The position numbers and the translations under genes are program-made. Shown here piece by piece: positions 29,089 through 34,259 of a DNA stretch of 37,740 nt. The notes under the pieces were generated by a model. That model had not been told where the DNA came from. It saw nothing but the letters and a program-made list of their open reading frames with translations, and did not search any database. The DNA is from a virus, in IMG/VR virus record IMGVR_UViG_3300035670_000637, positions 1-37,740 of that record; one strand, given 5' to 3'. Position 1 is the first letter of the stretch. Every line of letters begins with the position of its first letter.

Positions 29089-29380
29089 AGGTAAAGTTGC
29101 AATTCTGATTTCACGTGGCTACGGTGCAGGTTGGTATACATGGCACTATGATAAACGATTGCTATTTGAACCAAAGATTGTAGAGATGTTGGATGATGGC
29201 GCTGATCCTCATGAAATTAAATCATACTGTGAGAAAACATATGGTGATGAACTTTATTACGGTGGAGTTGATGGATTAGAAGTTCATTGGTTACCTATAG
29301 GCACGCAGTTTAAGATTGATAATTATGATGGTGCAGAAACTTTAATAATTTCTGACGATGTGTGTTGGATTACAGCATAA
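29063..29380 (+). CDS. Conserved phage hypothetical protein
   Basis: 105 residues. The start lies in the previous gene's end, with ACAGGA upstream. The N-terminus contains AILISRGYGAGWYTWHYDKR followed by LLFEPKIVEMLDDG; the C-terminus has WLPIGTQFKIDNYDGAETLI. This GYGAGWYTW family is widespread in T4-like and other phages with unknown function. It is the last protein gene before the tRNA leader region. Confidence 0.8.
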   Translation: MNIPKLILEGKVAILISRGYGAGWYTWHYDKRLLFEPKIVEMLDDGADPHEIKSYCEKTYGDELYYGGVDGLEVHWLPIGTQFKIDNYDGAETLIISDDVCWITA

Positions 29381-29384
29381 GTGT

Positions 29385-29392
29385 TATAAATA
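29385..29392 (+). promoter_or_regulatory. Candidate T4-type late promoter (TATAAATA)
   Basis: An exact TATAAATA 5 nt after the preceding stop. Transcripts would start near 29398 and run into the terminator at 29534 unless it is bypassed; no good gene follows immediately. Chance occurrence is possible. Confidence 0.35.
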
Positions 29393-29503
29393 AAATACTA
29401 TGAACAAACTATCCAACAGACCCACATGCATCACAAGTTATCAAGCCGATATTACGGTTGAGAATTGCTCACGCCCATTTTGGACAGGAGCAATTATGAG
29501 GGG

Positions 29504-29532
29504 TTGACAAAGGAAACAAATTGTCGTAAAAT
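29504..29532 (+). promoter_or_regulatory. Sigma70-type promoter firing through the terminator
   Basis: TTGACA (29504-29509), 17-bp spacer, TAAAAT (29527-29532). The expected start near 29539 falls within the 5' arm of the following hairpin, so its own RNA would lack most of that arm. Confidence 0.7.
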
Positions 29533-29533
29533 C

Positions 29534-29567
29534 AACCCCTAGCCTCAAAAACTAGGGGTTTTGTTTT
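29534..29567 (+). terminator. Strong intrinsic terminator before the tRNA array
   Basis: AACCCCTAG (29534-29542) pairs perfectly with CTAGGGGTT (29552-29560) around a 9-nt loop and is followed by TTGTTTT. It should stop read-through from the protein genes upstream. Confidence 0.85.
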
Positions 29568-29589
29568 CTGTAGTAAAAAAACAACAGTG

Positions 29590-29618
29590 TTGACAAGCAG
29601 TATAAAGTAGCGTAGAAT
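29590..29618 (+). promoter_or_regulatory. Sigma70-type promoter of the tRNA array
   Basis: TTGACA (29590-29595), 17-bp spacer, TAGAAT (29613-29618), 75 nt before tRNA-Ile. It is preceded by AAAAACAACA at 3 nt from the -35, the same arrangement as the promoter at 34770, perhaps an UP-element-like or activator site. Confidence 0.75.
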
Positions 29619-29692
29619 AGATTCTGTTGTGAGATTCAAATACGTTTGGATCGTGAAGTAAAGAGTTCCTTAAAAAATCAGTATACCAGATT

Positions 29693-29767
29693 CCCGGATT
29701 AGCTCAGAGGTAGAGCAGCGTCTTGATAAGGCGAAGGCGGATGGATCGTTACCATCATCCGGGACCA
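29693..29767 (+). tRNA. tRNA-Ile (GAT)
   Basis: Acceptor CCCGGAT/ATCCGGG, canonical D arm, anticodon loop TTGATAA, CCA encoded. The T-loop is ATCGTTA rather than the usual TTCRANY, so the 54-58 pair is swapped. Its ACCA end is also the foot of the first long hairpin of the next RNA element. Confidence 0.85.
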
Positions 29768-30263
29768 TAGTGAAGTGCATTGCCGAACAGACAAATGGTG
29801 GCGAGCCGATGAGTAGTGCATTTCACTATGGTAACCCGACTAACTGTGATACGAGCGTCAACTGCTCGGTAGCGGTTACCATAAAGTCCGATGTGAAATG
29901 AAGGTCAAAGTTTTTCGAGACTCAATTGGCAGTGATTTTCATCTTCGGACACCATATTGAAGCACATTGAGTTGGACTTCGTACAAAGTCCAATGGGGAG
30001 TTGAAGGTAGAAGAAGCGGCCGCTCTGTCTACCACATACACTCCGAGATACCAGTGTGTTTCAATATGGTAGCAATACCAGAACACGTGGCCATCAGCGT
30101 GTATAAAGGCGGCGAGTCTTAAACGAAGTCGGTGACGGGATAGGTAGAACAGTTACTCCGAAAATGTAACGCCGGATTTTGTAACCGGCAATCATATTGA
30201 AGCATATTCTATCAGGGCAGTATTGTTCGGCGGTTTAGAGCCGTGAGTATGTTTCAATATGGT
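29764..30263 (+). ncRNA. Large structured RNA element with three covarying long hairpins
   Basis: A gene-free ~500-nt stretch between tRNA-Ile and tRNA-Asp. Three pairs of 16-nt arms are complementary: 29764-29779 with 29817-29832, 29951-29966 with 30055-30070, and 30191-30206 with 30248-30263. The copies share sequence but differ by compensatory changes, and all keep a G-U pair at the same place. Between and inside them lie further stems: GGTAACC/GGTTACC (29830-29880), CGAGC/GCTCG, GTCCGA/TCGGAC (29886-29950), TTGGACTT/AAGTCCAA, GGTAGA/TCTACC, ACACG/CGTGT and GCCGG/CCGGC. Large ornate RNAs (GOLLD, ROOL) are known beside phage tRNAs, but I cannot assign this one to a family. Confidence 0.75.
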
Positions 30264-30335
30264 TCCTTAGTATATCGGTTAGTATAGCGGCTTGTCACGC
30301 CGCAGGGACGGGTTCGACTCCCGTAGGGACCGCCA
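30261..30335 (+). tRNA. tRNA-Asp (GTC)
   Basis: Acceptor GGTTCCT/AGGGACC with one T-G pair, anticodon loop TTGTCAC, T-arm ACGGG/CCCGT, discriminator G and CCA encoded. Its first three bases are also the end of the third long hairpin upstream. Confidence 0.95.
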
Positions 30336-30343
30336 AGTTCAAT

Positions 30344-30419
30344 GGTGATTGTAGCACAATGGTAGTGCCCCGGATTGTGAGTCCGTAAAGTGTGAGTTCG
30401 AATCTCATCAATCACCCCA
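30344..30419 (+). tRNA. tRNA-His (GTG)
   Basis: Acceptor GTGATTG/CAATCAC with a genome-encoded extra G(-1) opposite C73, the histidine identity mark. Anticodon loop contains GTG, T-loop TTCGAAT, CCA encoded. Confidence 0.95.
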
Positions 30420-30426
30420 AAGTTTT

Positions 30427-30500
30427 GCCTTCGTCGGTTAGTGGTAAACCAACGGTTTTGTAATCCGTGACTGTCTGTTCGATTCAGACCGAAGGCACCA
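30427..30500 (+). tRNA. tRNA-Thr (TGT)
   Basis: Acceptor GCCTTCG/CGAAGGC, anticodon loop TTTGTAA, T-loop TTCGATT, CCA encoded. The last anticodon-stem pair is T-T. Confidence 0.93.
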
Positions 30501-30508
30501 AAATTATA

Positions 30509-30584
30509 CACCGTTCGTCTAGCGGTCTAGGACATCGCCCTTTCAAGGCGAAGATCACGGGTTCAAATCCCGTACGGTGTGCCA
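30509..30584 (+). tRNA. tRNA-Glu (TTC)
   Basis: Acceptor ACACCGT/ACGGTGT, anticodon stem TCGCC/GGCGA with loop CTTTCAA, T-arm CACGGG-type, CCA encoded. Confidence 0.95.
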
Positions 30585-30591
30585 GATTATT

Positions 30592-30668
30592 CCGTCATTA
30601 GTTCAGCAGAATAGAACACTTGACTACGAATCAAGAGGTCGGGGGTTTGAATCCTTCATGACGGGCCA
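30592..30668 (+). tRNA. tRNA-Arg (ACG)
   Basis: Acceptor CCGTCAT/ATGACGG, anticodon stem CTTGA/TCAAG with loop CTACGAA, CCA encoded. A34 would need host TadA to read all CGN codons except CGG. Confidence 0.95.
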
Positions 30669-30673
30669 GAATT

Positions 30674-30749
30674 GCCGCTTTAGCTGATGTGGTCATAGCA
30701 GGCGCCTGAAGAGCGTCGGAACGTGGTTCGATCCCACGAGGCGGCACCA
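30674..30749 (+). tRNA. tRNA-Phe (GAA)
   Basis: Acceptor GCCGCTT/AGGCGGC (one T-G), anticodon stem GGCGC/GCGTC with loop CTGAAGA, T-loop TTCGATC, CCA encoded. Reading frame shift of the loop by one would give TGA (Ser), but the stem pairing fixes GAA. G37 instead of A37 is unusual for Phe. Confidence 0.85.
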
Positions 30750-30751
30750 AT

Positions 30752-30825
30752 GCGGGTATAACTTAGTGGTAAAGTAACTGGCTTTTAACCAGTAAACCGG
30801 AGTTCAATTCTCCGTGCCCGTACCA
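30752..30825 (+). tRNA. tRNA-Lys (TTT)
   Basis: Acceptor GCGGGTA/TGCCCGT, anticodon stem ACTGG/CCAGT with loop CTTTTAA, T-loop TTCAATT, CCA encoded. Confidence 0.95.
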
Positions 30826-30831
30826 GATTAT

Positions 30832-30907
30832 TCCGAAATAGCTCAGTCGGTAGAGCGACGGACTGTTAATCCGCAGGTCCCTGGTTCGAGCCCAGGTTTC
30901 GGAGCCA
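30832..30907 (+). tRNA. tRNA-Asn (GTT)
   Basis: Acceptor TCCGAAA/TTTCGGA, anticodon stem CGGA/TCCG with loop CTGTTAA, T-loop TTCGAGC, CCA encoded. The spacer before it (CCAGATTATTCCG) repeats the spacer before tRNA-Arg(ACG). Confidence 0.95.
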
Positions 30908-30914
30908 ATTCATT

Positions 30915-31003
30915 GGGTACTGTTCCCTACGGCGGACTGTAAATCCGTTGCCATAATATGTAGGGTGGTCGGCAGTTAGGTTCAATTCCTTCAGTACCCA
31001 CCA
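30915..31003 (+). tRNA. Aberrant tRNA-Tyr (GTA)
   Basis: Acceptor GGGTACT/AGTACCC with ACCA, and an anticodon arm GCGGA-CTGTAAA-TCCGT are clear. Only 10 nt separate acceptor and anticodon stem, so no normal D arm fits, while the variable region is enlarged. CCCTAC in the D position can pair with GTAGGG in the variable region, and the T stem is weak. It may be a rearranged or decayed gene. Confidence 0.65.
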
Positions 31004-31007
31004 ATAT

Positions 31008-31084
31008 CTCGGAGTAGTTCCAATTGGCAGAACGATGGTCTCCAAAACCATATGTTGGCGGTTCGAATCCGTCCTCCGAGGCCA
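31008..31084 (+). tRNA. tRNA-Trp (CCA)
   Basis: Acceptor CTCGGAG/CTCCGAG, anticodon stem ATGGT/ACCAT with loop CTCCAAA, T-loop TTCGAAT, CCA encoded. Confidence 0.95.
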
Positions 31085-31284
31085 GATCCCCGGCCCTACG
31101 CCGGTTATCAAGTAGGCGCAATAAGACTAGCGTTAGAAGTCTTAGGTATTCATACCTGCCTCCCTTCGGGCTATTCATCCGAAAGGGTAAAACGTATGTG
31201 TGGGTCTTACCAGCCCCGAGTAGGTATGGACAGGGCAACAACTCAAATCGGGGCTTCTGGGAAGAAGTAGCCGACCGAATTTAC
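31085..31284 (+). ncRNA. Second structured inter-tRNA spacer (~200 nt)
   Basis: No protein gene fits. Stems: CCTAC/GTAGG near 31094-31116, AAGACT/AGTCTT (31123-31143), AGGTA-TTCA-TACCT (31144-31157), CCCTTCGG/CCGAAAGGG with one bulge (31161-31188), and a perfect AGCCCCGA/TCGGGGCT (31211-31255). It lacks the long CATATTGAA arms of the first element. It may be a separate small RNA or remnants of tRNA genes; I could not fit a cloverleaf. Confidence 0.45.
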
Positions 31285-31359
31285 GGGGGGTTAGTGATAA
31301 CGGTAGCACAGGGGCTTTGCAAGCCTTTAGTAGGAGTTCGATTCTCCTATCCTCCACCA
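31285..31359 (+). tRNA. tRNA-Ala (TGC)
   Basis: Acceptor GGGGGGT/ATCCTCC with two G-T pairs, anticodon stem GGGGC/GCCTT with loop TTTGCAA, T-loop TTCGATT, CCA encoded. The G3-T70 pair is the alanine identity element. Confidence 0.9.
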
Positions 31360-31365
31360 AATCAT

Positions 31366-31443
31366 GTGTCGGTGGCTGAGTGGTCCAAAGCAACGGTCTG
31401 CAAAATCGTAAAGCCGCCAGTTCGAATCTGGCCCGGCACTCCA
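31366..31443 (+). tRNA. tRNA-Cys (GCA)
   Basis: Acceptor GTGTCGG/CCGGCAC, anticodon stem ACGGT/ATCGT with loop CTGCAAA, T73 discriminator typical of Cys, T-loop TTCGAAT, CCA encoded. Confidence 0.93.
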
Positions 31444-31450
31444 CATATAA

Positions 31451-31527
31451 GCCCAGATGATGGAATAGGTATACATATTGGACTTAAAATTCAAGTTATG
31501 CGGGTTCAAATCCCGCTCTGGGTACCA
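31451..31527 (+). tRNA. tRNA-Leu (TAA), short variable loop
   Basis: Acceptor GCCCAGA/TCTGGGT, anticodon stem TTGGA/TTCAA with loop CTTAAAA, T-loop TTCAAAT, CCA encoded. At 77 nt it lacks the long variable arm usual in bacterial tRNA-Leu. Confidence 0.88.
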
Positions 31528-31531
31528 ATAA

Positions 31532-31605
31532 CTCGGATTGGTGAAATGGTATCATTCGTGCTTTGGGAGCATGAGGCGCAAGTTCGATTCTTGCATCCGA
31601 GACCA
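31532..31605 (+). tRNA. tRNA-Pro (TGG)
   Basis: Acceptor CTCGGAT/ATCCGAG, anticodon loop TTTGGGA between GTGC and GCAT, T-loop TTCGATT, CCA encoded. Confidence 0.95.
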
Positions 31606-31620
31606 AAAGATGTTATAATA

Positions 31621-31697
31621 GCCCGTGTGGTGCAATTGGTAGACACGCTTGACTTAGGATCAAGATGTTGAGGGTTCGAATCCTTCTACGGGCACCA
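31621..31697 (+). tRNA. tRNA-Leu (TAG), short variable loop
   Basis: Acceptor GCCCGTG/TACGGGC, anticodon stem CTTGA/TCAAG with loop CTTAGGA, T-loop TTCGAAT, CCA encoded. Like the TAA isoacceptor it has no long variable arm. Confidence 0.92.
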
Positions 31698-31710
31698 GTA
31701 TAAAGTTTAT

Positions 31711-31781
31711 TGCGGTGAGTCAGGAGAGAAGAGGGTCTCATAAGCCTTTCTTAGGTGGTTCGAATCCACCCGCCGCAACCA
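31711..31781 (+). tRNA. tRNA-Met or Ile2 (CAT), short D arm
   Basis: Acceptor TGCGGTG/CGCCGCA, anticodon stem AGGGT/GCCTT with loop CTCATAA, T-arm GGTGG/CCACC, CCA encoded. Total length 71: only 14 nt lie between acceptor and anticodon stem, too few for a normal D arm with GG. Confidence 0.75.
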
Positions 31782-31786
31782 GAAAT

Positions 31787-31863
31787 GCGGGTATGGTGTT
31801 TAACGGTTAGCATGTCAGTCTTCCAAACTGAAGGTCCGAGTTCAAATCTCGATGCCCGCTCCA
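31787..31863 (+). tRNA. tRNA-Gly (TCC)
   Basis: Acceptor GCGGGTA/TGCCCGC, anticodon stem TCAGT/ACTGA with loop CTTCCAA, T-loop TTCAAAT, T73, CCA encoded. Spacer plus 5' end (CCAGAAATGCGGGTATG) repeats at tRNA-Gly(GCC), pointing to duplication. Confidence 0.95.
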
Positions 31864-31877
31864 GCGATCTTAAGTAA

Positions 31878-32249
31878 TTACCAATAAAATCTTAAACCTA
31901 TCATATAATTGTTTATCGCAGCACCACCATGAGAGATTGTCCGTGCAGTCAGAAATATAGTTCTATTTCTATCCGATAAGTAATCGGTGAAAAAGTAACT
32001 TCCAACTAATAATGATATAAAATATAAATCAATTTTATCTGTTGAAGGATTTTTACCTAAAATTAAATTTTTTTCATAGTAACCAAGATGATACTTGTTA
32101 GGCAAATCTCTTGTTAATAGCCAATCAGCCGTCATTGCAGCGGTTGATGCAATAAAAAGATTTTTATTTTTATCGGACCAATCTTCCCAGTGACTGTAAC
32201 ATACGGGAGAGAGTGTGAATAGGAGACTGTAAAGAAATATTTTTAGCAT
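31878..32249 (-). CDS. Exported/membrane protein inside the tRNA array
   Basis: 123 residues on the opposite strand to the tRNAs. Signal peptide MLKIFLYSLLFTLSPVCYSH, then FIASTAAMTADWLLTRDLPN, YHLGYYEKNLILGKNPSTDK and hydrophobic IDLYFISLLVGSYFFTDYL; ends in NNYMIGLRFYW. The 'AADW.TTRD..Y.E.NP.LG..PS' pattern is one I know from small membrane proteins in phages and bacteria. Expression would need its own promoter; only CATAAATA, one base off the late box, lies just upstream (32257-32264). Confidence 0.75.
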   Translation of the reverse strand: MLKIFLYSLLFTLSPVCYSHWEDWSDKNKNLFIASTAAMTADWLLTRDLPNKYHLGYYEKNLILGKNPSTDKIDLYFISLLVGSYFFTDYLSDRNRTIFLTARTISHGGAAINNYMIGLRFYW

Positions 32250-32266
32250 ATAACTATTATTTATGA

Positions 32267-32341
32267 GCCTTGTTAGTTTAATGGTAAAACGCTGCCCTTA
32301 CAAGACAGATAGCGGTGGTTCGATTCCATCACAAGGCACCA
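32267..32341 (+). tRNA. tRNA-Val (TAC)
   Basis: Acceptor GCCTTGT/ACAAGGC, anticodon loop CTTACAA, anticodon stem CTGCC/GACAG with one C-A mismatch, T-loop TTCGATT, CCA encoded. Confidence 0.92.
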
Positions 32342-32347
32342 AAGTAT

Positions 32348-32423
32348 ATCACCGTGGTCTAATGGATAAGGCAACGCTCTTCTAAAGCGTCCGATGGGGG
32401 TTCGAATCCCTCCGGTGGTACCA
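32348..32423 (+). tRNA. tRNA-Arg (TCT)
   Basis: Acceptor ATCACCG/CGGTGGT, anticodon stem ACGCT/AGCGT with loop CTTCTAA, T-loop TTCGAAT, CCA encoded. It reads AGA/AGG, codons much used in this AT-rich phage. Confidence 0.95.
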
Positions 32424-32451
32424 ATCAATTAATTTAACACAGGAGATTATC

Positions 32452-33015
32452 ATGGCCGCAACATGGCTTATATCAGATACGCATTTCGGTCATGATAAAA
32501 CATGTACCGTTTTTAAAAGAGATGACGGGACTCCACTCAGACCATTCAAAGATGCTGAAGAAATGGACGAAGAAATGGTCAAGCGTTGGAACGAACGAGT
32601 AAGCAAGAAAGATAAAGTATACCATTTGGGGGATGTTGTCATTGCAAGAAAATCGTTAGCAACTTTATATCGTTTAAACGGTGATAAAGTTTTGATCAAA
32701 GGTAATCATGATATCTTTAAATTGGATGATTACACAAAACACTTTAGAGATATTCGTGGATACCATGTAATGGCTGGGCTTATTTTCAGTCATGTACCTG
32801 TTCATGCTGATAGCATTGAAAGATTTGGGTGTAATGTTCACGGGCATCTACACCATAGAAGAGTTCTTGTCAATGGTAAAATTGATCCAAGATACTTCAA
32901 TGTGAGTGTAGAATGCATCGACTTTGCACCAATTCTTTTAGAGGATCTTAGAACAAAAATCCTTGAGCAAGGCGGTGATGTTGTAATGAAAAAGTCTAAG
33001 CATGATGTTGATTGA
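32452..33015 (+). CDS. Calcineurin-like metallophosphoesterase
   Basis: 187 residues after ACAGGAG. The metal-binding motifs are complete: Asp9/His11 (LISDTHFGH), Asp61 (HLGDVV), Asn85-His86-Asp87 (IKGNHD), His114 (FSHVPVH) and His130/His132 (NVHGHLHH). Phage members are small phosphoesterases whose substrate is usually unknown (cyclic nucleotide, RNA end or cell-signalling compound). The stop codon abuts the first base of tRNA-Gln, so gene and tRNA share a transcript that must be cut precisely. Confidence 0.9.
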   Translation: MAATWLISDTHFGHDKTCTVFKRDDGTPLRPFKDAEEMDEEMVKRWNERVSKKDKVYHLGDVVIARKSLATLYRLNGDKVLIKGNHDIFKLDDYTKHFRDIRGYHVMAGLIFSHVPVHADSIERFGCNVHGHLHHRRVLVNGKIDPRYFNVSVECIDFAPILLEDLRTKILEQGGDVVMKKSKHDVD

Positions 33016-33091
33016 TGGGGATTCGCCAAGTTGGTAAGGCATCGGATTTTGATTCCGACACGCACAGGTTCGAATCCTGTATCCCCTACCA
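33016..33091 (+). tRNA. tRNA-Gln (TTG)
   Basis: Acceptor GGGGAT/ATCCCC with unpaired T1-T72 (E. coli tRNA-Gln also has a weak first pair), anticodon stem CGGA/TCCG with loop TTTTGAT, T-loop TTCGAAT, CCA encoded. It begins the base after the upstream stop codon. Confidence 0.93.
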
Positions 33092-33178
33092 ACTATCAAG
33101 CCAATAGAAATAATTCATGAAAAATATAGCACTTATAGTTATACATAATGTTACGATAAACCATTTACGGAGGACGAA

Positions 33179-33628
33179 ATGTCTCTAACACTGAAAAATT
33201 TGGAGAGTGCATTAGCAGGTGAATCTATGGCTCACATTAAGTATAGATATTTTGCTAAGATTGCACGAGATGAAGGCTACGAAGATGTAGCAAAGCATTT
33301 TGAACATACAGCAGACCAAGAAATCAAACATGCATGGGGCCATCTTGAATTGATTCTTGGTAAGATTGATACACGCCAAGCATTGCAAAAGGCTATCGAA
33401 GGTGAAACATATGAGTTCACGACCATGTATCCAGGATTTGTAGCGGATGCAATCAAAGAGGCTGAAGACTTTGCAGTACATGAATTTAGAAATAACATTC
33501 AAGAAAGTTCCGATCATGCAAAGCAGTTCAAAGAACGATTAGCGTTAGCAGAAAAACGATTTGCAGCACTACAAAAAGTAGAACAGAAACATGCAAATGC
33601 TTACAAACAAGTTCTGGAGAATCTATAA
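33179..33628 (+). CDS. Rubrerythrin-type di-iron ferritin-like domain
   Basis: 149 residues with a strong GGAGG site. Di-iron ligands of rubrerythrin can be placed: Glu15 (ALAGESMAHIKYRYFA), Glu48-x-x-His51 (ADQEIKHAWGH), Glu76/Glu79 (IEGETYEFTTMYPGF) and Glu125 (LALAEKRF). Rubrerythrins reduce peroxide. Unlike bacterial ones this protein ends after the ferritin-like bundle; the rubredoxin part is encoded by the next ORF, coupled by TAATG. Confidence 0.88.
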   Translation: MSLTLKNLESALAGESMAHIKYRYFAKIARDEGYEDVAKHFEHTADQEIKHAWGHLELILGKIDTRQALQKAIEGETYEFTTMYPGFVADAIKEAEDFAVHEFRNNIQESSDHAKQFKERLALAEKRFAALQKVEQKHANAYKQVLENL

Positions 33629-33771
33629 TGGAAAAAGAAAAGGACTACGTGTGTATTGTCTGCGGTCATCGTCTTGCTGAATCAGACTACCTTTCATTAC
33701 CAGAAGAAGTTGGTTGCCCTGAATGTGGTGTTTCAAAGCATGATTACTACTTAGAAGATTTTGGAGATTGA
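33628..33771 (+). CDS. Rubredoxin-like electron carrier, separate from rubrerythrin
   Basis: 47 residues. Two Cys pairs, YVCIVCGHRL and GCPECGVSKHDYYLEDF, give the four iron ligands of a rubredoxin; the GVSKHDYYLED end matches the usual G.sKddF. The ORF starts on the last A of the rubrerythrin stop. Normal rubrerythrin has this domain fused at the C-terminus, so the pair looks like a split version. It would pass electrons to the di-iron centre. Confidence 0.85.
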   Translation: MEKEKDYVCIVCGHRLAESDYLSLPEEVGCPECGVSKHDYYLEDFGD

Positions 33772-33777
33772 TATATA

Positions 33778-33870
33778 GGAAGAGTTAGCCGAGTTGGACT
33801 AGCGGCGACGGTCTTGAAAACCGTAGGCTCAGAAATGGGTGTGTGAGTTCGAGTCTCACCTCTTCCACCA
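33778..33870 (+). tRNA. tRNA-Ser (TGA)
   Basis: Acceptor GGAAGAG/CTCTTCC, anticodon stem ACGGT/ACCGT with loop CTTGAAA, long variable arm typical of Ser, T-loop TTCGAGT, CCA encoded; 93 nt. It starts 6 nt after the rubredoxin stop. Confidence 0.95.
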
Positions 33871-33889
33871 ACATCACTAAGGAAATATT

Positions 33890-34102
33890 ATGGCAACAAG
33901 AGTACCAAAAACAAGTAAGAAAAAGTCTGAAGGATCAAAATCAATACCAACAAAAACTACTATTACGCAAGTTGATAATTTAAAATATCTTGACGGCACT
34001 GTAGAAGGCGAATATAGTAGAAGCGTTTATGTCAATAACGAATTGGTCAGTTTTGATATTGATTGGAAGAAGTTGGAAGACTATATGAAGAAGGTTGGCT
34101 GA
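33890..34102 (+). CDS. Small basic protein whose end overlaps tRNA-Ser
   Basis: 70 residues after AAGGAAA. The N-terminal ~25 residues are Lys/Ser/Thr-rich, then ITQVDNLKYLDGTVEGEYSR and YVNNELVSFDIDWKKLEDYM. The last 14 nt, including the stop codon, are inside tRNA-Ser(GCT), so tRNA maturation would cut the mRNA before its stop. No family recognised. Confidence 0.6.
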   Translation: MATRVPKTSKKKSEGSKSIPTKTTITQVDNLKYLDGTVEGEYSRSVYVNNELVSFDIDWKKLEDYMKKVG

Positions 34103-34180
34103 GTGGTCGAAAGCAGCGGTTTGCTAAACCGTAGGCTGGCGAAAGCTGGCCCATGGGTTCGAATCCCATACCTTCTGCCA
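34089..34180 (+). tRNA. tRNA-Ser (GCT)
   Basis: Acceptor AGAAGGT/ACCTTCT, anticodon loop TTGCTAA between GCGGT and ACCGT, long variable arm (GGCTGGCGAAAGCTGGC), T-loop TTCGAAT, CCA encoded; 92 nt. Its 5' end overlaps the previous coding region by 14 nt. Confidence 0.95.
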
Positions 34181-34185
34181 GAAAT

Positions 34186-34259
34186 GCGGGTATGATGTAA
34201 TGGTAACCTGAAACCTTGCCAAGGTTTACATGCGAGTTCGATTCTCGCTACCCGCTCCA
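34186..34259 (+). tRNA. tRNA-Gly (GCC)
   Basis: Acceptor GCGGGTA/TACCCGC, anticodon stem AAACC/GGTTT with loop TTGCCAA, T-loop TTCGATT, T73, CCA encoded. Last gene of the array; shares its 5' end and spacer with tRNA-Gly(TCC). Confidence 0.95.

Follow-up and report, generated by a model that had tools for sequence, protein, structure and literature searches.

The three long hairpins located between the tRNA-Ile and tRNA-Asp genes of an IMG/VR virus record are real and under selection as RNA, and look like copies of a dispersed modular element, not domains of one ornate RNA. The window, which is the whole stretch of DNA analyzed, comprises 37,740 bases of this record and includes a tRNA array that extends from 29693 to 34259. 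It is established that the element has a stem of 15–18 bp or longer which reaches into the NCCA end of the upstream RNA, and which in some cases terminates within the opening nucleotides of the RNA that follows. The stem covaries on the strand of the tRNAs, bears a head that can be exchanged, and is positioned preferentially behind the first tRNA that follows a promoter and boxA.

All features of the locus are on the plus strand. A sigma70-type promoter for the tRNA operon (TTGACA-17-TAGAAT, a consensus match; 29590–29618) is followed by a boxA-like element, TCCTTAAAA (29667–29675), which matches the core form of boxA and not the stricter form, and which is situated 26 nt before tRNA-Ile(GAT) (29693–29767), the first tRNA of the operon. 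The ACCA end of this tRNA provides nucleotides 1–4 of hairpin 1 (29764–29832) which possesses 18-bp arms and a head (29782–29814) composed of CCGAACAGACAAA, P2, and a GATGAG motif. Unit C (29830–29880), which has the closing stem GGTAACC/GGTTACC and folds weakly below shuffles (z −2.5), and unit B (29886–29950; closing stem GTCCGA/TCGGAC; z −2.1) separate this hairpin from hairpin 2 (29951–30070; head 29969–30052). Unit D (30071–30190; AGCAATACC...GTAACCGGCA; z −1.9) follows, and was detected beside differing hairpins in 13 loci, a number that includes the window, its near-copy L036, and one partial match. Hairpin 3 (30191–30263), whose head (30209–30245) was found in nine different flanking contexts, shares its last three nucleotides (GGT) with the start of tRNA-Asp(GTC) (30261–30335). 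The closing stem of unit C itself covaries, being GGTAGCC/GGTTACC in L034 and GGTATAA/TTATATC in L004, and this unit also is present where no hairpin immediately precedes it (L038, L121).

Other observations concern the remainder of the array. The tRNA-Trp to tRNA-Ala interval of the window (31085–31290) contains a hairpin-less unit, ...GGACAGGGCAACAACTC...GGGGCTT...AAGTAGCC, for which 18 matches were found in 17 loci, some partial and with identity from 72%; it gave no Rfam match and may be a separate new phage RNA. Inspection by eye also disclosed two tRNA-like genes missed by ARAGORN (30915–31003 and 31711–31781), one Tyr-like with a long variable arm and the other with a CAT anticodon, as well as a T-arm without TTC (GTTACCATC) in the tRNA-Ile at 29693 and in a Tyr-like gene of L011.

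An earlier note on this DNA described three arm pairs which indeed are present at the positions claimed and are 94, 89, and 85% complementary. Hairpins 1, 2, and 3 fold far below their own shuffles (z −5.8, −7.2, and −6.3, respectively), as does the whole 500-nt region (z −7.1), and the inner stems that the note described also are present. With arm positions counted from 1, the changes between copies were assigned correctly at positions 12–15, whereas the G-C to T-A change placed at position 6 actually is at position 7. Hairpin 3 is off-pattern at position 2 (ATCATA, a U.G pair). GOLLD and ROOL are structured RNAs that occur beside phage tRNAs. The note saw no basis to name the region as either, and this agrees with the results of Rfam covariance models: the window matched only tRNA at the gathering score, region 29380–30270 at E ≤ 5 produced neither GOLLD nor ROOL nor anything else relevant, and neither family was found in seven related loci at E ≤ 0.5. 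The hairpins differ from GOLLD and ROOL in being modular, short, and without an Rfam match. DNA queries of cultured phages with the window, L152, and L030 retrieved only tRNA matches or 23-nt matches at chance level, and searches of open-access papers found no description of the element. With no Rfam family, cultured-phage copy, or published description found in these searches, the hairpin element appears to be new.

A first pattern scan of viral contigs yielded 48 stretches, almost all of which belong to phage tRNA arrays. A relaxed arm search of 146 records identified at least 377 hairpins in at least 140 loci; totals of loci, hairpins, and families are minimum values because a second viral scan contributes lower bounds. 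This search demanded at least 15 of 18 pairs and took the better-pairing strand, and so is biased towards pairing, whereas the covariation and tRNA-end tests below used either no arm-pairing criterion or slid controls. Among the matches listed, 350 of 370 hairpins were carried on the strand of most tRNAs. When up to four mismatches in 22 core positions were allowed, at least 138 loci were recovered, of which 135 had a tRNA in the stretch examined, and at least 106 of these tRNA-bearing loci were left after removal of near-duplicates. As most loci were collected for carrying the hairpin, the fractions given are not population rates. The strict pattern was absent from bacterial genomes and the relaxed pattern occurred in eight bacterial stretches. 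The arm scan recognized a hairpin in two of these (L051, L052), both at loci without tRNAs; these two are counted among the 377 hairpins and excluded from later tests. L036, which essentially is the window itself, was left out together with L050–L057 of the CATA/TATG, tRNA 3′-end, isotype, and promoter-plus-boxA tests.

The hairpin arms covary strongly. In 288 hairpins read on the tRNA-majority strand, a choice made independently of pairing, 532 cells had G.U or U.G compared with 76 that had A.C or C.A. Thus, the contention in the earlier note that the stem is maintained by selection as RNA was well founded. This count is preferred over an alternative G.U count of 148 to 7, as the latter depends on choosing the better-pairing strand. 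In a second test, all CATA..TATG occurrences 38–180 nt apart in the collected loci were taken, the other 12 positions were scored, and both strands were counted: 439 sites reached 11 or 12 pairs, a number that fell to 1–4 when the partner was slid by 1–2 nt. Moreover, 218 distinct arm pairs, which were picked by consensus similarity and from which views with more A.C than G.U were dropped as the antisense side, contained 275 double-change cells, where shuffles averaged 52.5 (maximum 83), and 218 broken cells compared with 502 in shuffles.

The position of the hairpins relative to tRNAs is precise. Among the matches listed, the tRNA ended exactly 4 nt inside the hairpin in 137 of 377 cases and in any other close register in five; the next tRNA began in the last 3 nt of the hairpin in 41 of 377, and non-tRNA sequence followed in others. 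The 3′ ends of 1426 distinct tRNAs were inspected without use of the arm sequence, and 120 had a stem that started at −4 with 15 or more of 16 pairs formed. Starts at −3 or −1 gave 123 each, as the same stem goes on, and other offsets produced 28 (−7), 1 (−10), 18 (+3), and 3–10 (+8 to +60). Thus, the stem reaches back into NCCA but seldom further. Although CATATTGAA was present in 69 of the 120 stems in the NCCA register, others included ACCATTTGTTAGTGTTAT, ACCATTTAGTTTGTTGTT, and ACCATAATATGTGTGCGA: the shared rule is geometry, not one sequence. The possibility that the hairpins are tRNA introns was rejected, as removal restored a tRNA in none of 293 instances with six junction modes. Permuted tRNAs also were rejected, with two weak ARAGORN candidates among 183 and flank pairing that was not above shuffles.

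A hairpin followed 28 of 37 tRNAs that had a promoter no more than 150 nt and a boxA core no more than 45 nt upstream, the two being recognized as consensus matches and not as measured sites, compared with 93 of 1444 other tRNAs (odds ratio 45, p = 1e-24). The tRNA-Ile of the window is among the 28 and, in common with the other 36 led tRNAs, has the promoter and boxA upstream that typify an rrn-type leader. As boxA had been loosened to its core after the stricter form missed the window, the stricter test was repeated with the window left out and again revealed the association (17 of 23 vs. 103 of 1435, p = 8e-15). Where a promoter was found, its median distance was 570 nt for hairpins and 907.5 nt for tRNAs. 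Promoter-like sequence followed by a hairpin with no tRNA was observed by eye in L003, L007, and L009, and also in L017, L023, and L169. Nevertheless, 89 of 269 hairpins were more than 1 kb from any recognized promoter, and thus not all hairpins are leaders. After clustering at 90%, the hairpin was present at 19 of 39 tRNA-Glu, 12 of 35 tRNA-Lys(ttt), and none of 87 tRNA-Met clusters. Glu accounted for 20 of the 37 tRNAs led by promoter and boxA, but the hairpin still occurred without this leader at Lys (22 of 69), Glu (16 of 59), and Leu (17 of 104). Thus, the isotype bias is explained in part, and not fully, by the leader.

These consensus matches suggest that the phage tRNA operons may use the Nus antitermination complex of the host. 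The interpretation that we prefer, with confidence a little short of even, is that the hairpins may act as leader or intervening RNA modules of boxA-led phage tRNA operons. By analogy with known systems, boxA would recruit the host Nus complex during synthesis of the long untranslated operon. The hairpin, as the first stable structure after the first tRNA, could help this complex to keep RNA polymerase going and could bracket the RNA for processing; it might then be cut out, much as the intervening segment of a permuted tmRNA is, and the head would serve as an interchangeable docking domain, possibly adapted to the host. In rrn operons, boxA antitermination is combined with a leader–trailer helix that must exceed 17 bp, as the available portion of PMC10250234 describes, and an excerpt of PMC4807359 proposes that the Nus/SuhB complex may mainly serve rRNA maturation. 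As far as these extracts extend (PMC10250234; PMC4807359), the rrn leader shares with the phage arrays a promoter, boxA, a long untranslated structured transcript, and a helix of >17 bp by mature ends; unlike the rrn leader, the phage hairpin has a local stem with a head and does not enclose rRNA. An rrn-type boxA leader also is characterized by Nus-dependent resistance to Rho. The putRNA of phage HK022, according to the part of PMC9378689 at hand, is a 70-nt leader RNA just behind a phage promoter that can itself modify RNA polymerase. It resembles the hairpins in its size of ~70 nt, action in cis, and location near a phage transcript start (PMC9378689), but consists of two stem-loops with a triplex whereas the phage hairpin is one long stem with varied heads. 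To bring about antitermination, putRNA contacts the beta′ subunit of the polymerase directly. The leader interpretation is favored by the NCCA register, the association with promoter and boxA, the promoter-like sequences ahead of head 1 and of hairpins without a tRNA, the inner arms and heads common to tmRNA segments, and the covariation. Against it, 93 of the 121 hairpin-bearing tRNAs lack a promoter and boxA, nine of the 37 led tRNAs lack a hairpin, several hairpins are possible per operon, the Lys bias persists without a leader, and head diversity is not predicted by one common antitermination mechanism. In addition, L014 retains the head of hairpin 2 without the 3′ arm. A pure processing spacer and cargo RNA are serious rivals, and mixtures are possible.

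The intervening segment of permuted tmRNA is the nearest known kind to the hairpins. Circularly permuted tmRNA genes were found in five phage loci (L003, 13937–14332; L025, 5093–5467; L088, 642–1009; L117, 8133–8581; L121, 8323–8716). In L003, L025, L088, and L117, a hairpin occupies the segment from CCA to the 5′ start, and its inner arms, AARCAYAYT/ARTRTGYTT, are those of the tRNA-array hairpins. Heads moreover are common to tmRNA segments and tRNA-array hairpins, with 97.7% identity across 44 nt between L059 and L088, and 90% across 40 nt between L094 and L025. The L025 gene matches the betaproteobacterial tmRNA model, which hints at the probable hosts. Intervening segments of permuted tmRNAs (PMC11915505, in the section available) and likewise of permuted tRNAs (PMC3978253, also a partial text) are removed by tRNA-processing enzymes. 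Both the tmRNA segment, which is cut out, and the hairpins in the NCCA register are placed after a CCA end and before the next mature 5′ end; unlike the tmRNA segment, the hairpins are flanked by different RNAs and not by halves of one. The part of the Rfam beta_tmRNA alignment examined, outside which 14 positions lie, has no paired stem at the intervening segment. Theta ribozymes also are located at tRNA 3′ ends in phages, but the accessible part of PMC10879173 states that their tRNAs rarely encode CCA (4.5%), whereas the tRNA genes next to the hairpins include CCA, which contributes to the stem. Rfam ribozyme families, including HDV-like, gave no match in a library from which theta ribozymes possibly are absent.

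The stem might be a site for host RNase III (or RNase P/E) that frees the CCA end and separates the RNAs, with the head as filler, an explanation that is unlikely but is the strongest competitor. Pairing of the NCCA end at the stem base, the tRNAs that begin in the last 3 nt of a hairpin, the excised segments of the same module kind in tmRNA genes, and heads as short as 10 nt (L047), or 6–7 nt where the arms diverge (two hairpins, L128 and L125), are all as expected for a spacer. However, 1306 of the 1426 distinct tRNA 3′ ends have no such stem, copies of head 1 exist outside tRNA arrays, and filler would drift whereas heads nearly always are kept or replaced whole. An RNase III gene was found in none of ten large contigs and therefore the spacer model needs the host enzyme. 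RtcB also was found in none of the ten; a search with PF01612 says little, as this family represents RNase D-type enzymes poorly.

The heads, which range from 6 to 177 nt, are highly diverse: 293 of the 302 distinct hairpins were grouped into at least 197 families (~197 at a 75% cut). At 47 orthologous sites, defined by both 45-nt flanks being ≥90% identical, ten had unrelated heads. Head identity in 126 pairs from such sites was ~1.0 in 106, ≤0.6 in 19, and 0.8 in one. In 12 swapped pairs the differences in the 5′ arm were at positions 12–18 and once at 9, and hairpin 2 of the window differs from its counterpart in L043, which carries an unrelated head at the same site, by a swap with 5′-arm differences of the same kind. 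Of 193 head families, 60 were noted in at least two different flanking contexts, and the stems that close one 88-nt head have quite dissimilar sequences. The hairpins might thus comprise a head-swapping RNA scaffold in which the CCA-clamped stem is the socket and the ~197 or more head families are traded between sites and phages, a possibility with the balance tipping somewhat against it; at the same reserve, this trade would include tmRNA intervening segments and mRNA leaders. A tRNA T-loop motif was present in 25 of the 197 heads compared with 5.2 expected from mononucleotide shuffles. Some heads (L058, L132, L133, L034, L117) end in a T-arm that immediately precedes the 3′ arm, which gives the impression of a tRNA body mounted on the 18-bp stem; these T-arms may be captured tRNA pieces. 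Kissing palindromes were rejected as a general rule, with 40 six-nt palindromes in 49 heads and 33.5 (sd 5.7) in shuffled heads.

That the heads are cargo, namely regulatory or decoy RNAs directed against the host or rivals for which the stem is a release or stability handle and the operon a platform, is improbable. This explanation accommodates the number of head families, their recurrence in different contexts, whole replacement at orthologous sites, the closure of one head by different stems, and the excess of T-loop motifs. However, it leaves the NCCA register and the boxA association unexplained, the candidate heads have no known target, and the T-arms may have been captured from tRNAs.

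The head of hairpin 1 forms a distinct motif, R-CCGAACAGACAAA-P2-GATGAG-Y, that occurs at 37 places in the loci of the set, duplicates included. L147 fits the pattern but forms no stem and was excluded from the alignment. Two-sided changes affect 17 of 21 pairs across 24 distinct sequences, and the covariation score is 0.569 compared with 0.06–0.19 in slid versions; invariance of the loop core is not a result, since the search pattern dictated it, whereas the stems were left free. A model of the motif also detected copies in L011 and L086 that the pattern had missed. Other heads were rejected as distant members, as members score at least 68 bits and the rest at most 38 bits. Copies were present in six tRNA-less loci (L149, L150, L152, L155, L158, L164) with small ORFs downstream, for example at L149 39–80, L150 1186–1227, and L152 1164–1205. 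The motif is located 21–22 nt after a −10 box in promoter-like sequence in L150, L152, and L155, and its closing stem in these leaders is GACGAA/TTCGTC (TTCGTT in the L150 type). Neither ORF type behind the motif had a PHROGs match. From this arrangement, head 1 likely opens phage mRNA leaders.

The co-occurrence of the three heads bears on whether they belong together. An intact copy of hairpin 2 was observed in the window and L036 and in no other locus. In L014 all three heads are present in a different order and hairpin 2 is broken, its head being kept and its 3′ arm lost. Thus, at least one homolog with a lost arm exists, a finding that the earlier note regarded as counting against the structure, but the inner palindrome of this head is altered in a compensated manner from AGCGGCCGCT to ACCGGCCGGT. 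Heads 1 and 3 are found together in L017, L023, L027, and L043. Among 42 records with any of the three heads, which are partial records, head 1 is alone in 29 and head 3 in seven. We read the hairpins and units as traveling modules, some of which often are together.

It is very improbable that the hairpin is mobile, in the manner of a MITE or an attC site, and inserts after the CCA end of tRNAs: related arrays do have hairpin-less sites directly behind NCCA, and the modular exchange with its clustered 5′-arm differences would fit, but 424 of the 439 CATA..TATG sites are within 1 kb of a tRNA, the strand bias is pronounced, and reverse transcriptase, Y1 transposase, and tyrosine integrase each were absent from the ten large contigs, which possibly are fragments. 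Scarcely credible is the single ~500-nt ornate RNA with three covarying arms that the earlier note proposed, correctly as to a covarying RNA without an Rfam match: the whole region folds well and the heads do co-occur in several loci, but heads 1 and 3 exist elsewhere without each other, their order differs in L014, both unit C and head 2 have given way to unrelated sequence in the close relative L043, the folding of units B, C, and D is only slightly better than that of shuffles, and lone hairpins between two tRNAs (L002, L032) already disfavor the proposal.

Phage tRNA arrays usually are read as a supply of tRNAs. Many instead look like boxA-led operons with a structured RNA element of their own that covaries, is modular, and is swapped as a whole, and the means by which phages transcribe kilobases of untranslated RNA and bring it to maturity thereby becomes testable. 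The element also presents a pool of ~197 RNA domains, one of which likely heads phage mRNAs as well. If the head-swapping interpretation is true, these domains would be the RNA equivalent of gene cassettes, with rapid diversification that serves to control transcription in the host or to engage host factors.
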